Source: a virus. Taken from it: a DNA stretch of 20,012 bases. The stretch lies in the IMG/VR virus record IMGVR_UViG_3300008262_000394, positions 1-20,012 of that record; one strand, 5' to 3'. Numbering within the stretch: the first letter of the stretch is position 1; every line of letters begins with the position of its first letter. The translations under genes and the position numbers were made by a program. Under the pieces are notes generated by a model, which saw only the letters and a list, made by a program, of their open reading frames with translations, had not been told where the DNA came from and made no database searches. Below are positions 10,858 to 14,987 of this stretch, piece by piece.

Positions 10858-11505
10858 TTACACCACCTCAGTTCGGACCTGCCCCGAACGATACGCATCC
10901 TGTCGATCCTTGCCGTCACCCAAGTTCTTCAACAACGTCAAAGACTGGACGTACTGTTTGCTGGCTTCCGCCACAACGTCAGGCTCCTGCTTCATCCACC
11001 GAGCAACTTCAACCAGCACCGCGTTAAACAGTACGCTGTCAAAGTTGTCGCCAAGCCATGTGGTAGTAGCCGTGACAATGCTCTCTGGGTAGTAGAAGTA
11101 GTTCAGTTCTGCTGTCAGCGCAGCGGCGGGCGTGGGCCCCAACAGGAAGGATTGGACCTTCGGAGTTCCCGTCTGCGTGCCGTACAGAGCGTAATACTTC
11201 GGCGTTCCAGTAACGGCAACACTTGGGAAAGACTCCCGCATGAAGTTCACATCCTTGTTCAGCAGAAAGCTGAACTCCCCAGCGACGGTCACGCCCAAAG
11301 AAAAAGCTGAAAGGAAGTCAGCCGGGACAACAAGCAGTGGGTTGCCGATGACCAGCGTAAGGTTTGAAGTCTTACGTAGGTTGGGGAGTTGCACCGAGTT
11401 GTAGATGCGCTGCTCCGCCAACTTCGTCATTGTGGCAAAGTCAGCCGACGAGAACGTGTTCTCTACCGCGTCCTGAACAGCGGTCTGCAACTCGGTGTAG
11501 TTCAT
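10858..11505 (-). CDS. Putative head-tail adaptor (SU10-adaptor-like), 215 aa
   Basis: The N-terminal segment (MNYTELQTAVQDAVENTFSS, then MTKLAEQRIYNSVQLPNLRK) and the following VPADFLSAFSLGV and FSFLLNKDVNFMRESFP match the pattern I recall for the phage adaptor family named after phage SU10. Such proteins form the ring under the portal that connects head and tail. The C-terminal part (NAVLVEVARWMKQEPDVVAE) is helical, as expected for adaptors. No clear Shine-Dalgarno sequence precedes the ATG; instead there is an A-rich small inverted repeat. The family assignment is from memory of motifs and moderately secure; the gene call is certain. Confidence 0.8.
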   Translation of the reverse strand: MNYTELQTAVQDAVENTFSSADFATMTKLAEQRIYNSVQLPNLRKTSNLTLVIGNPLLVVPADFLSAFSLGVTVAGEFSFLLNKDVNFMRESFPSVAVTGTPKYYALYGTQTGTPKVQSFLLGPTPAAALTAELNYFYYPESIVTATTTWLGDNFDSVLFNAVLVEVARWMKQEPDVVAEASKQYVQSLTLLKNLGDGKDRQDAYRSGQVRTEVV

Positions 11506-11523: not shown

Positions 11524-11712
11524 TTACGCCATTGGCCCACGGGCCATGAAGCCACGGGTGGCGGCACCAGCACCGCGCATCTTCACGCCGGAGGTCTTGG
11601 CCGGAGGAGCAACCTCCTTGGAGGAGTTGCCAATCACCATGCACAGGTCACGGGGGTTCTCAGCGCCTTGAGGATAGCTGGACTTGGCAGGAGCAAGTTT
11701 CTTGGTCTTCAT
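11524..11712 (-). CDS. Small basic protein, 62 aa, with C-terminal RGxGxxxRG tag
   Basis: The protein starts MKTKKLAPAKSSYPQ, contains a short conserved-looking middle (NPRDLCMVIGNSSKEV) and ends KMRGAGAATRGFMARGPMA. That ending aligns with the C-termini of three other small proteins in this window. It starts 3 bp after the stop of the preceding small gene, with GGGGTGAG upstream, and ends 18 bp before the adaptor gene. It is too small and basic for an enzyme. I recall such endings in small phage proteins of unknown function. A role in assembly or nucleic-acid contact is conjecture. Confidence 0.75.
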   Translation of the reverse strand: MKTKKLAPAKSSYPQGAENPRDLCMVIGNSSKEVAPPAKTSGVKMRGAGAATRGFMARGPMA

Positions 11713-11715
11713 GGC

Positions 11716-11871
11716 TCACCCCGTCTTCTGGTTCATGGCGCGGGACATATTCTTGCCCAGGCGCATGCGGTCATCGGTGGTCGGGCCACCCTTTTTGAAG
11801 CCTTTGCCGTGAGCTTCACTGGCGGGCTTCTTGGCGTGGGCTCGGAGAGCCGCCATTGCATCTTTTTTCAT
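11716..11871 (-). CDS. Small basic protein, 51 aa, function unknown
   Basis: The reading starts MKKDAMAALRAHAKK, continues through GKGFKKGGPTTDDRM and ends RAMNQKTG. The second of two consecutive ATG codons (11871) is chosen because AAGGAG lies 5 bases before it but only 2 bases before the first (11874). It fills the gap between the zinc-ribbon gene and the 62-aa gene with 3-9 bp margins, which supports it as real. It is strongly basic and carries a K-G-G segment like its neighbours. It has no recognisable domain. Confidence 0.72.
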   Translation of the reverse strand: MKKDAMAALRAHAKKPASEAHGKGFKKGGPTTDDRMRLGKNMSRAMNQKTG

Positions 11872-11876
11872 CATCG

Positions 11877-11882
11877 CTCCTT
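11877..11882 (-). promoter_or_regulatory. Ribosome binding site AAGGAG deciding the start of the 51-aa gene
   Basis: AAGGAG overlaps the TAA stop of the zinc-ribbon gene and lies 5 bases before ATG 11871. The tandem ATG at 11874 would be only 2 bases away, which is too close. Confidence 0.7.
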
Positions 11883-12273
11883 AAGTCACGACCACCGTGA
11901 CCGTACCGACTTCTGCTGGAGAAGTCAACCAATTGGGCGTCAGCCCGTCATCAAAAGACTGAGAACCACCGACTGGTGCCCAGCCCCACTGGATTACTCT
12001 GCTGCCCTCGCCGGTAGACCCAGTTGCCGTTTGGCCCGAGGCGTACCAAGTGTTTGTGTCTGGACGAGGATCGCGGATGGCCTGGGGGTCACTTACCGGG
12101 AAGGTCCCCAACAAAAGTTGTGGGTGATCCATTGACCAGCATTGAGGACACGCCTTTATTTGTGTCTGCTTTGTCTTTACAACTTCGTTTTTAAGTTTCT
12201 TCAGTGGAAACCTAAAATTACAATAATCGCAGAACCCGAAGGCCTTTGCGCCGTTTGCAAAACGATTGCTCAT
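11881..12273 (-). CDS. Zinc-ribbon phage protein, 130 aa
   Basis: Four cysteines in two CxxC pairs (Cys15/Cys18 in FCDYC and Cys42/Cys45 in CPQC), 23 residues apart, form a probable zinc ribbon. The segment CWSMDHPQLLLG and then DPQAIRDPRPD is characteristic of a small protein family in late regions of tailed phages. The C-terminal half (WGWAPVGGSQSF, TVTVVVT) is a short beta-rich tail. Start ATG overlaps the upstream TGA by 4 bp. The context between two head-tail connector candidates suggests a virion or assembly role rather than transcription control, but a nucleic-acid-binding regulator cannot be excluded. Confidence 0.85.
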   Translation of the reverse strand: MSNRFANGAKAFGFCDYCNFRFPLKKLKNEVVKTKQTQIKACPQCWSMDHPQLLLGTFPVSDPQAIRDPRPDTNTWYASGQTATGSTGEGSRVIQWGWAPVGGSQSFDDGLTPNWLTSPAEVGTVTVVVT

Positions 12274-12965
12274 GAGATGAACATCTGGCGTGGGACCAGA
12301 CGAATAGCTGCCTTCTCACGATCTTCCGTCGAAGCCAGATCCCAGGCTTCATCGTACTGCTGCTTCAGAACCTGCATGCGCTCCATAGCGCCAGGGATCT
12401 TCATGGACAGGTAGTACGCAAGCCCCGCAACCAGTGCGTTGAGGAAGCGGAACGGGATGTCCTGCGTGTACGTACCACCGGCCCCAGCATCCTGAATCCT
12501 GCGCAACCGCCAGTAGACGAGCGTGTAGGTCTGCGAGTTGTCGGGCGTGGGCCACACAGTGAACTGCGGAGCAGGGCCTTGGCGGTTGATCCAGATCTGA
12601 ATCGGCCTTGCTTGTTGCAGCTTGTTCGGGATGGACGAGTAGGTGGAGACCGAGATGCGCGTGATGGTCAGGTCGGTCTGTGTTGAAACAGAACCGGAGC
12701 CCGTGCGGATCACATGCTCAAGCAAATCCACCGTGTCGGCAGGCAGCGTGTAGGTATTTGTACCGGGTGTCAGGACTTGTGAGCCTTGCTCCACCGTCCA
12801 GAGGTTAATCCCTCGGTTGGCCCAGTCTGTGAAGAGCAGGTTCATCGACCGCCGTGCGGTCTTCAGGTCATAACCCGTGCGAAGCTCTGCACCACAGCGC
12901 TCAAAGGCTTCCTCAACCGCTTCGTTGAGGTCAAGATTGAATGTAGTGATGCCGGAGGTTGTCAT
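12270..12965 (-). CDS. Putative head-tail connector / tail accessory protein (P22 gp4-like), 231 aa
   Basis: The N-terminal half is helical (LNEAVEEAFERCGAELRTGY, then ARRSMNLLFTDWANRGINLW). It is followed by a beta-rich middle (TYTLPADTVDLLEHVI) and a helical C-terminus (FRFLNALVAGLAYYLSMKIP, QQYDEAWDLASTEDREKA). This layout and wording match proteins I recall beside gp10-like hubs in podovirus-like modules, where P22 gp4-type accessory factors seal the portal. The gene overlaps the zinc-ribbon gene by 4 bp. The presence of a gp10-like hub further downstream supports the placement. The exact homology to gp4 is not proven. Confidence 0.83.
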   Translation of the reverse strand: MTTSGITTFNLDLNEAVEEAFERCGAELRTGYDLKTARRSMNLLFTDWANRGINLWTVEQGSQVLTPGTNTYTLPADTVDLLEHVIRTGSGSVSTQTDLTITRISVSTYSSIPNKLQQARPIQIWINRQGPAPQFTVWPTPDNSQTYTLVYWRLRRIQDAGAGGTYTQDIPFRFLNALVAGLAYYLSMKIPGAMERMQVLKQQYDEAWDLASTEDREKAAIRLVPRQMFIS

Positions 12966-12966
12966 A

Positions 12967-13197
12967 TCACTTCGCCGTCATTGCGGAACGCTTGAACGCT
13001 TTGGCAGTAGGAGCGCCGGGAGCACCCGGCTTGCGCATGGTTTCGCCCGATCCTGCGGCAATCCGTTTGCGCTTGGCATTGATGTTGGCGTAGAGGCCAA
13101 CTTCGCCGCCCTTGGCGTACTCAGTGAAGTCAGTGTTATCACGGCGCTTCTTCACCACACCTTTACGGATTGCCCCCATACCCCGTGAAGCCATCAT
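12967..13197 (-). CDS. Small basic phage protein, 76 aa, function unknown
   Basis: The conserved block starts at Tyr27 (YAKGGEVGLYANINAKRKRI) and continues AAGSGETMRKPGAPGAPTAKAF. I recall this block as a frequent small protein of uncultured tailed phages with no assigned role. It is strongly basic. The start ATG overlaps the stop of the 255-aa gene (ATGATGA), implying coupled translation; AGG lies 5 bases before the first ATG. The neighbouring head-tail gene starts 2 bp after its stop. Confidence 0.8.
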   Translation of the reverse strand: MMASRGMGAIRKGVVKKRRDNTDFTEYAKGGEVGLYANINAKRKRIAAGSGETMRKPGAPGAPTAKAFKRSAMTAK

Positions 13198-13961
13198 ACA
13201 AACCTACCTTTGGTTTTACCCCGAGATTCGCATCCACCGCCACGGACTGATCCACCCGAAGCATAGCCAATCCGACCACCCTTAGCGCGGAGTTCGTAGT
13301 CAGGTTCACGATCCTCCCGTGTACGGTCACGAGGGGAAGCCTTCTTGGGGGTAGCCTGTAGGACGGGCTTGTTACGCTCCATCGTCTCTGCACGAGCTTT
13401 GGCGGTCCTACCCGCTTCTGCGCGTTTGGCTTGAAGTTGTTTACGCCCAACTGCTCCACGCATCGTGGACTCGGCGGCTTCCATCTCGGCCTTGGGGCTG
13501 AACCTACGCCCAGTTTCCGTGGTGACCTGCTTCGCCGTTTGTGGGGAGGAAAATTTAGCCGCTGCGGCCTTCGCAGTTTCTTTCGCGGCTTCTGCGGCCT
13601 TCTCGGCTCGGCTCAACCGTGCAAGTTTTGCTGCGCCTGCAATCCCCGCGCCCGCGCCCAACCCCATGAAAATGCGGTCCATGTTGCTGGGGCCAGAAGT
13701 ATCTTCACCCGTGCTCGCGGGGGCGGCTTCCTTACCCTTGGGGATCTCTGCGCTTGCCGCTTTTGGTGCGGGGGCGGGAGCAGATGCTTTGGGCTTTGGT
13801 TTCGCCGGTGCAGCCGCCTTGGGGGCGTCACTTCCCCCACGCTCTAGAAACTTTTTCGCCCGAGCGTAGGTATCTTCGTCAAAGCTACCCTTTTCACGCC
13901 CAGAAGCGAGTTCGTCTAGGGCAGCCGTGCCGCCTTCAGAGAATTTGCGGTACTTGCGCAT
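13194..13961 (-). CDS. Low-complexity Ala/Lys/Pro protein, 255 aa, with C-terminal RGKTKGR tag
   Basis: Residues 1-45 (MRKYRKFSEGGTAALDELAS) are followed by an Ala/Pro/Lys linker, a Gly/Ala-rich hydrophobic stretch near residues 96-113 (IFMGLGAGAGIAGAAKL), and a long charged helix rich in A, K, E and R. The last 30 residues contain RAKGGRIGYASGGSV and end RGGGCESRGKTKGRFV. The ending is shared with neighbours. The composition resembles scaffold- or DNA-contacting proteins, but no family is recognised. The plus-strand DNA here holds long open frames that I treat as shadows because this frame has consistent coupling at both ends. Confidence 0.75.
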   Translation of the reverse strand: MRKYRKFSEGGTAALDELASGREKGSFDEDTYARAKKFLERGGSDAPKAAAPAKPKPKASAPAPAPKAASAEIPKGKEAAPASTGEDTSGPSNMDRIFMGLGAGAGIAGAAKLARLSRAEKAAEAAKETAKAAAAKFSSPQTAKQVTTETGRRFSPKAEMEAAESTMRGAVGRKQLQAKRAEAGRTAKARAETMERNKPVLQATPKKASPRDRTREDREPDYELRAKGGRIGYASGGSVRGGGCESRGKTKGRFV

Positions 13962-13962
13962 A

Positions 13963-14196
13963 TCACATCACCCGTCCTTTGGTATGGCCCTTGGTTACAC
14001 AGCCGTCACCACGAGTTACAGACCCACCACCTGCCATCTTCTTTACCGGAACCTTGGCAGGCTTCGGGGGCGGGTAGTCTTTCTTGGTCTGAGCCGCTGC
14101 CTTCTTTTCCCCAGAAGCGCGTTGCGCCGGAGGAAGTGCGGACAACTGGTCGATGTCCACCGGAGGCGGACCCATCTCTTTACGGTATTCAGCCAC
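13963..14196 (-). CDS. Small Pro/Lys-rich protein, 77 aa, GTG start, C-terminal tag
   Basis: The frame could begin at GTG 14208, but GTG 14196 is preferred. GGAGG lies exactly 5 bases before 14196, and this start gives an 8-bp overlap with the upstream stop. The product reads MAEYRKEMGPPPVDIDQLS, a Pro/Lys segment (KKDYPPPKPAKVPVKK), then ends GGGSVTRGDGCVTKGHTKGR-VM. The end aligns residue for residue with that of the 255-aa protein. No domain is recognised. It is tightly packed between two tagged neighbours. Confidence 0.75.
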   Translation of the reverse strand: MAEYRKEMGPPPVDIDQLSALPPAQRASGEKKAAAQTKKDYPPPKPAKVPVKKMAGGGSVTRGDGCVTKGHTKGRVM

Positions 14197-14509
14197 AGGA
14201 ACCTCCACGCATCATTTTGACCATCTTGCCCTTGGTCTTGCCACGAGACTCGATGCCACCGCCCTTGGCGTAGCCCTTACCCTTGGCTTCCTTCATTTCT
14301 TCAGCAGCCATCTTGGGCTTACCGGCCTTCTTCAGGGCGGCAGCGTGGCGCATTTCCATTGCCTTCTTGGCTGGGGACATCTTCATTTCGCCTCCTTCGG
14401 CATGGGCTTTAGGCCCGACAAACTTCTTCGCTACGCTCGGCGGGACATCCGTCTTGCCAGCGAGAGACGCATACATGAACCGGCGCTGCTTCTCAGATTG
14501 AACCGGCAC
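14189..14509 (-). CDS. Small basic protein, 106 aa, GTG start, QRRFMYA family-like, tagged C-terminus
   Basis: The frame is open to 14554, but the start is placed at GTG 14509 because GGAG lies 8 bases upstream and the product then begins MPVQSEKQRRFMYASLAGKT. This opening is recurrent in small phage and prophage proteins. Two A-x-G-G segments occur (HAEGGEMKM and GYAKGGGIESRG). A Lys/Ala/Met-rich helix lies between them. The end is RGKTKGKMVKMMRGGSCG. It overlaps the 83-aa gene by 17 bp and the 77-aa gene by 8 bp. The function is unknown. Confidence 0.75.
   Translation of the reverse strand: MPVQSEKQRRFMYASLAGKTDVPPSVAKKFVGPKAHAEGGEMKMSPAKKAMEMRHAAALKKAGKPKMAAEEMKEAKGKGYAKGGGIESRGKTKGKMVKMMRGGSCG
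14202..14206 (-). promoter_or_regulatory. Ribosome binding site GGAGG deciding start of the 77-aa gene
   Basis: GGAGG is separated by five bases (TTCCT) from GTG 14196. It overlaps the alternative GTG at 14208, which has no comparable site. Confidence 0.7.
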
Positions 14510-14747: not shown

Positions 14748-14987
14748 TCAGCACTTCCATGCACGCCGCGCTTTCCTCAGGCGGCTATCAGGATCTTTGG
14801 CCGCTTCCGGCCACATCTTCATCTGCCCCGCAGAACGGGCGCAGAACGACTTCTTGCGAGGACCGCCCTCGGGCTGAGGAGGCTTCAGATTCATACCCTG
14901 GGCTTTGGCAGATGCCCGCCCCTTGGCGTTTAGACCGCCCTTGGGGTTCTGCCCCTCCTTGCGGGTCCAAGCGGGAGACTTAGCCAT
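14748..14987 (-). CDS. Small basic phage protein, 79 aa (DUF6321-like)
   Basis: The sequence opens MAKSPAWTRKEGQNPKGGLN, continues AKGRASAKAQGMNLKPPQPE and contains RKKSFCARSAGQMKMWPEAA, ending RRAWKC. This order matches what I recall for a conserved small family in phages listed as DUF6321; function is not known. It is strongly basic with only two cysteines. It starts 1 bp beyond the stop of the 93-aa gene. Confidence 0.8.
   Translation of the reverse strand: MAKSPAWTRKEGQNPKGGLNAKGRASAKAQGMNLKPPQPEGGPRKKSFCARSAGQMKMWPEAAKDPDSRLRKARRAWKC

Follow-up and report, generated by a model that had tools for sequence, protein, structure and literature searches.

In one podovirus group, made up mostly of uncultivated water phages, dozens of small proteins from the head-neck gene cluster carry short conserved peptides that are restricted to the protein terminus, are portable among otherwise unalignable bodies, are under selection at the level of the peptide, have been swapped on near-identical bodies, and keep almost entirely to one phage lineage and one gene-cluster context. 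On balance these peptides are probably docking tags for virion assembly, borne by fast-changing, largely disordered small proteins. The window, by which we mean the whole 20-kb stretch analysed, is a podovirus fragment from IMG/VR, and its adaptor and stabilisation proteins have their closest named relatives in Phage DSL-LC04, Pelagibacter phages HTVC023P/027P, Roseobacter phages CRP-901/902 and Planktothrix phage Pag-Yong1.

The preliminary description had reported a shared C-terminal tag on four small proteins whose upstream parts are unrelated. All four endings are present where it placed them, on the minus strand (Table 1), and no similarity is detectable among the four bodies; the endings are indeed related, but they fall into three classes rather than one. 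Tag-1 is found on the 255- and 77-aa proteins, the latter lying in an open reading frame (ORF) that gives 81 aa from an earlier GTG and reaches 14208. The 106-aa protein bears tag-3, in which tag-1 is lengthened by about nine residues (a KMxxGGxC-like extension) and is therefore not flush with the stop; the protein consists of an N-terminal KQxxFM...VPxSVxKxF domain followed by the tag, KGGGIESRGKTKGKMV with the extension KMMRGGSCG, encoded at 14192-14266. Tag-2, on the 62-aa protein, is a separate related class with one copy per locus, encoded in the window between the genes for adaptors 1 and 2. Of the 157 window ORFs of at least 40 aa, 4 have a core of the form [RK]GxGxxx[RK]G among their last 26 residues. 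Since 2,000 shuffles reached a maximum of 2 (mean 0.03 for whole-protein and 0.09 for last-26-residue shuffles), these endings are not a product of chance. The same core, missed in the first reading, stands at the N-terminus of the 76-aa protein (MMASRGMGAIRKG). As a separate observation, a 52-aa protein of this module (11716-11874) ends in KGGPTTDDRMRLGKNMSRAMNQKTG, which resembles KGGKTNMQMRQLGRNLAKVANQK in locus L411 and is possibly another conserved short ending.

Table 1. Tagged genes of the window and their neighbours (positions in the window).
Feature	Position	Strand	Details
255-aa tag-1 carrier	13194..13961	-	ends RGGGCESRGKTKGRFV; tag-coding 13197-13244; stop 13194-13196
77-aa tag-1 carrier, GTG start	13963..14196	-	ends RGDGCVTKGHTKGRVM; tag-coding 13966-14013; stop 13963-13965
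106-aa tag-3 carrier	14189..14509	-	ends KGGGIESRGKTKGKMVKMMRGGSCG; stop 14189-14191
62-aa tag-2 carrier	11524..11712	-	ends RGAGAATRGFMARGPMA; tag-coding 11527-11577; stop 11524-11526
76-aa protein, N-terminal tag and phrog_16028 payload	12967..13197	-	tag MMASRGMGAIRKGVVKKRRDNTDFTEYAKGG (13105-13197); payload GLYANINAKRKRIAAGSGETMRKPG... (12970-13104)
79-aa DUF6321 (PF19846) protein	14748..14987	-	untagged in window; relatives with tag-1 or N-terminal tag; passes PF19846 gathering score (55.9 bits, cut-off 28.5)
SU10-type adaptor 1 (reference gene)	12270..12965	-	tag-1 genes just upstream
Conserved 130-aa gene	11881..12273	-	between adaptor 1 and tag-2 gene
SU10-type adaptor 2	10858..11505	-	just downstream of tag-2 gene

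Terminal restriction extends far beyond the window. We scanned IMG/VR with stop-free back-translated patterns for tag-1 (RGDGxAx[RK]GxT[KR]G[KR]xx) and tag-2 (RGxGAATKGxxARGPMA). Among the matches listed, the frame stops exactly two residues past the core pattern in 145 of 146 distinct tag-1 hits and directly after the pattern in all 143 distinct tag-2 hits, a near-total C-terminal bias, and the similar endings that the preliminary description mentioned in other environmental phages do recur in many of them. The reversed pattern gave no match in 23 records. A looser core, applied to all collected ORFs, a set enriched for tagged loci through the way in which it was collected, gave 482 distinct cases. 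No more than 20 residues separate the core from the C-terminus in 408 of these, 6 lie close to the N-terminus, and 68 are internal, a good part of the internal cores listed being DUF6321-type domains or tandem tags. Such tandem tags were seen in L032 and its relatives, where an internal RGDGCVTKGHTKGKMMAMGGSCYAKGG precedes a terminal RADGVATKGHTKGKMV. In L164 and L116, relatives of tag-1 bodies bear the ending RGWG[IM]ARGARxAK[IM]R in place of tag-1. We rejected one candidate for tag-2 in a bacterial gene, as the single genome_contigs match is a 3-kb MAG contig that carries the podovirus group's neck genes and is probably phage DNA.

A mirror-like tag occupies the opposite end of another set of proteins, to which the 76-aa protein of the window belongs. 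The SRGMG motif (SRGMGAI...YAEGG) stands at the start of 163 distinct ORFs and is followed by a YAEGG-like hinge and then by one of about 10 payload groups. Among these are phrog_16028, YPSAYA-type modules and a KPGAL-type module, with DUF6321 in a single case; the largest group (122), formed through single linkage, may combine several modules. The order is mirrored, body-KGG-tag at the C-terminus as against tag-YAEGG-body at the N-terminus, and tag-1 is found in none of the 142 ORFs that begin with SRGMG under a stricter count. Matches to the phrog_16028 payload itself cover only about residues 31-76 and come from T7-like cyano-, pelagi- and roseophages; the CRP-118 version, gp26, is encoded between the scaffold and capsid genes.

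Tag-1 bodies, clustered by BLASTP after the last 28 residues were trimmed, form 72 clusters at 1e-5 and, in a larger set, 142 at 1e-4. Up to four tag-1 copies occur in one locus, and none of the 153 pairs of bodies inside one locus is related. When the 142 representatives are aligned only the tail is conserved (KGGxVxASxRADGIAQRGKTRGRMV), and a Pfam search of them yielded one convincing match, DUF6321. The preliminary description had named full-length paralogy as the alternative to a shared tag, and none is detectable here, although the roughly 140 BLASTP-based clusters consist of fast-evolving disordered proteins and could be undetected homologues. Common descent, under which all carriers would be paralogues with bodies diverged past recognition, does find some encouragement in these low-complexity, fast-evolving bodies and in the Gly-Gly hinge that most of them share, with an N-terminal [KR][FY]xxGG motif in 20 of 142. 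Because unalignable bodies could still be ancient homologues, cases in which tags are exchanged weigh more. In the 255-aa family, the bodies of L001 (a relative of the window's 255-aa protein) and L005 are 98% identical and their tags are different; only over the last 60 nt does DNA identity drop to 0.43-0.47, against 0.87-1.0 in the upstream DNA and as much as 1.0 in the downstream DNA. At least three different tags occur in the 77-aa family, even on bodies whose aligned sequence is 100% identical. DUF6321 proteins are untagged in 160 of 166 cases, bear tag-1 in six, and once bear the N-terminal tag. For KQxxFM proteins we set the corresponding counts aside, since their seemingly untagged class includes overlooked tag-3 variants. 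Tags are separable from bodies, having been gained, lost and swapped, and they sit on distinct domains (DUF6321, KQxxFM) that are found untagged elsewhere, all of which makes common descent quite improbable as an explanation.

The bodies otherwise offered few leads. Protein searches with the window carriers gave no match in named phages, perhaps in part owing to low-complexity filtering. Searches against solved structures found no match for the 62-aa, Pag-Yong1 tagged, phrog_16028 and DUF6321 proteins and returned chance-level hits only for the 77-aa and KQxxFM queries, and the PADLOC defence models gave single weak hits only.

Localised replacement of a tag between near-identical flanking DNA would also be expected if the tag-coding DNA were mainly a recombination cassette, with new genes inserting before a conserved end. 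We regard this as the most improbable of the alternatives, since the tag is highly variable at third codon positions (entropy about 1.1-2 bits) and what is conserved is the peptide: where residues are identical, third positions agree at 0.41 when different loci are compared and at 0.52 inside one locus, from which it follows that selection acts on the peptide and not on its DNA. Positions fixed in the search expression are conserved by construction, but Asp at -14, a position that the expression left free, is kept in 92%, and Thr at -6, one of three residues that it allowed, in 97%. Tags from the same locus are more alike than shuffled ones (0.70 vs 0.63, a value reached by 0 of 2,000 shuffles); a shared partner predicts this likeness, and lineage or gene conversion would predict it likewise.

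The position of the tags at gene junctions raises a further alternative, that they act at translation, either as a nascent-chain (arrest-like) peptide or as a junction element regulating the next gene of the operon. Such a role would agree with the fact that the last ~25 residues alone matter, and the next ATG is no more than 12 nt away in 288 of 354 tag-1 genes. The codon of Gly -4 is GGA or GGG in 54% of genes with a near next start, in 22% otherwise, and in at most 12% at other tag glycines, so the last KG[KR] codons of the tag probably double as the ribosome-binding site of the next gene. This dual use could account for the last few codons only, the peptide is kept where the next start is far, and an N-terminal counterpart exists. 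Moreover, the spacing is no different at untagged neighbours (for both, the fraction within 12 nt is 0.67), and junction spacing therefore does not explain the tag. A translation-time role consequently seems very unlikely to us, and a special gene junction, like a DNA cassette and full-length paralogy, is disfavoured.

Composition points to yet another possibility, namely that basic ends rich in Gly, Arg and Lys bind nucleic acid and so anchor disordered proteins on mRNA or on the packaged genome, with no protein partner involved. Every tag contains several Lys/Arg residues, and the bodies, in which disorder-promoting residues abound, have a net positive charge of about +0.06 per residue. AlphaFold models are of low confidence (mean pLDDT 54 for the 106-aa protein and 57 for the 255-aa protein), the body of the latter being modelled as helical stretches with disordered linkers and tail. 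The conserved Asp and Thr, the hydrophobic final residues and the fixed distance to the C-terminus nevertheless exceed what charge needs, and charge alone would require no terminal position; we judge nucleic-acid binding to be unlikely, if less so than the alternatives above.

The phylogenetic and genomic setting of the tags is narrow. Among the matches listed, 226 of 229 tag-scan loci, including all of those longer than 6 kb, carry head-neck markers of the HTVC023P/DSL-LC04/Pag-Yong1-like podovirus group, and in long records the gene order is terminase, portal, GroES, putative scaffold, major capsid, tag-1 genes, adaptor 1, tag-2 and adaptor 2. In a sample centred on the adaptor, in which loci were not chosen by tag and 44 had enough upstream sequence, tag-1 is present in 28 of the 44, with two or more copies in 15. 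Of the 68 tag-1 genes found there, 67 have their ends in the interval from 3.5 kb upstream of adaptor 1 to 10 nt inside it, and tag-2 follows at 0.3-1.3 kb downstream of this adaptor. Among ten named phage genomes searched whole, Pag-Yong1 is the sole match for tag-1, in UMO75986, which has the C-terminus GRDGCAKRGRTKGRFI and is encoded between the capsid and adaptor genes. Tag-1 is dispensable, as it is absent from nine of these ten named relatives and from 16 of the 44 adaptor loci; HTVC023P gp51 ends in a looser variant, SRGGGAAVRGMGFKGVF. We observed in passing that the records OQ594354 (Synechococcus phage MinM2), OL906435 (Pag-Yong1) and PP438419 (Planktothrix phage Pra-JY27) all have 65,014 bases and that the proteins compared are 100% identical, yet different hosts are named.

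A link to the virion comes from one payload domain. KQxxFM makes up most of the 58-aa PHIKZ165.1, which is 47% identical over 36 residues to the 106-aa protein of the window and is untagged in phiKZ. A search with the domain consensus also places it at the N-terminus of CBB_322 (E 2e-3), a protein detected in purified CBB virions by mass spectrometry with 30 unique peptides and 43.57% coverage (PMC5259590). Direct BLASTP of the 106-aa protein against CBB_322 does not align the KQxxFM domain, so this link runs via the family consensus. A relative additionally matches two PHROGs with the annotation of virion structural protein, 22033 and 25121. From gene position together with the occurrence of this one domain in a virion protein of jumbo phage CBB, we infer that the tagged proteins are located in the virion.

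The docking reading starts from the small, mostly basic, largely disordered proteins of the head-neck cluster, each of which has a terminal peptide that can be exchanged (the N-terminal SRGMG tag, or tag-1 or tag-3 at the C-terminus) and that is joined to its body through a Gly-Gly hinge ([FYM]xKGG or YAEGG). A component of the assembling particle, which might be the capsid interior, scaffold, portal or adaptor, would recognise the tag, and varied payloads would so be brought to a common site; they would probably be packaged and might be delivered to the host. Tag-2 is the related variant present once per locus, on a single conserved gene of the neck region. As a modular set of tags used at both termini, the system has strong support. 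The targeting tag proposed in the preliminary description has part of its basis in what we observe, a strictly terminal peptide on unalignable bodies in many phages, with the targeting itself the conjectural part. More doubtful, though conceivable, is the fuller notion of a payload-hinge-tag system, in which the labels RxDGxAxxGKTxG (C-terminal) and SRGMGAI (N-terminal) load a fast-changing repertoire of proteins into the particles of an abundant podovirus group and are themselves exchanged between payloads, which would make it a C-terminal counterpart to the system of T4.

Two known systems offer analogies. The capsid targeting sequence (CTS) of T4 is N-terminal and is removed by the gp21 protease, and encapsulin cargo-loading peptides are C-terminal and recruit unrelated cargo into an HK97-fold shell. 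Like the latter, the tags include a C-terminal peptide on unrelated proteins; encapsulins are not phages and are likened here by description only. The internal proteins of T4 are highly diverse, the targeting sequence alone being conserved, and foreign proteins can be packaged with the T4 CTS (PMC3012670). Our tags resemble the CTS in being conserved short terminal peptides on otherwise diverse small proteins, a likeness of behaviour and not of sequence alignment. Unlike it, tag-1 and tag-2 are C-terminal and the phages are podoviruses; the SRGMG tag is likewise N-terminal. Pfam searches of the upstream head genes gave no match indicating a separate protease, and the capsid protein shows weak similarity to head/protease PHROGs. 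By analogy the tag system appears to work like the T4 CTS, and we do not file it as a member because its position differs. DUF6321, phrog_16028 and KQxxFM (phrog_16759) are payloads or neighbours in the same module, some of them tag carriers; they are bodies and not tags. In the open-access literature we found no earlier description of the tag system and no paper on a tag sequence or on DUF6321.

Should the tags be packaging signals, 16 residues alone would mark dozens of dark orphan proteins as probable particle components and would provide a label, open to testing, with which reporters could be loaded into these phages, an idea that is directly testable because Pag-Yong1, a named phage, bears tag-1. 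They would then represent a second case, besides T4, of a fast-changing set of phage payloads behind one fixed address.
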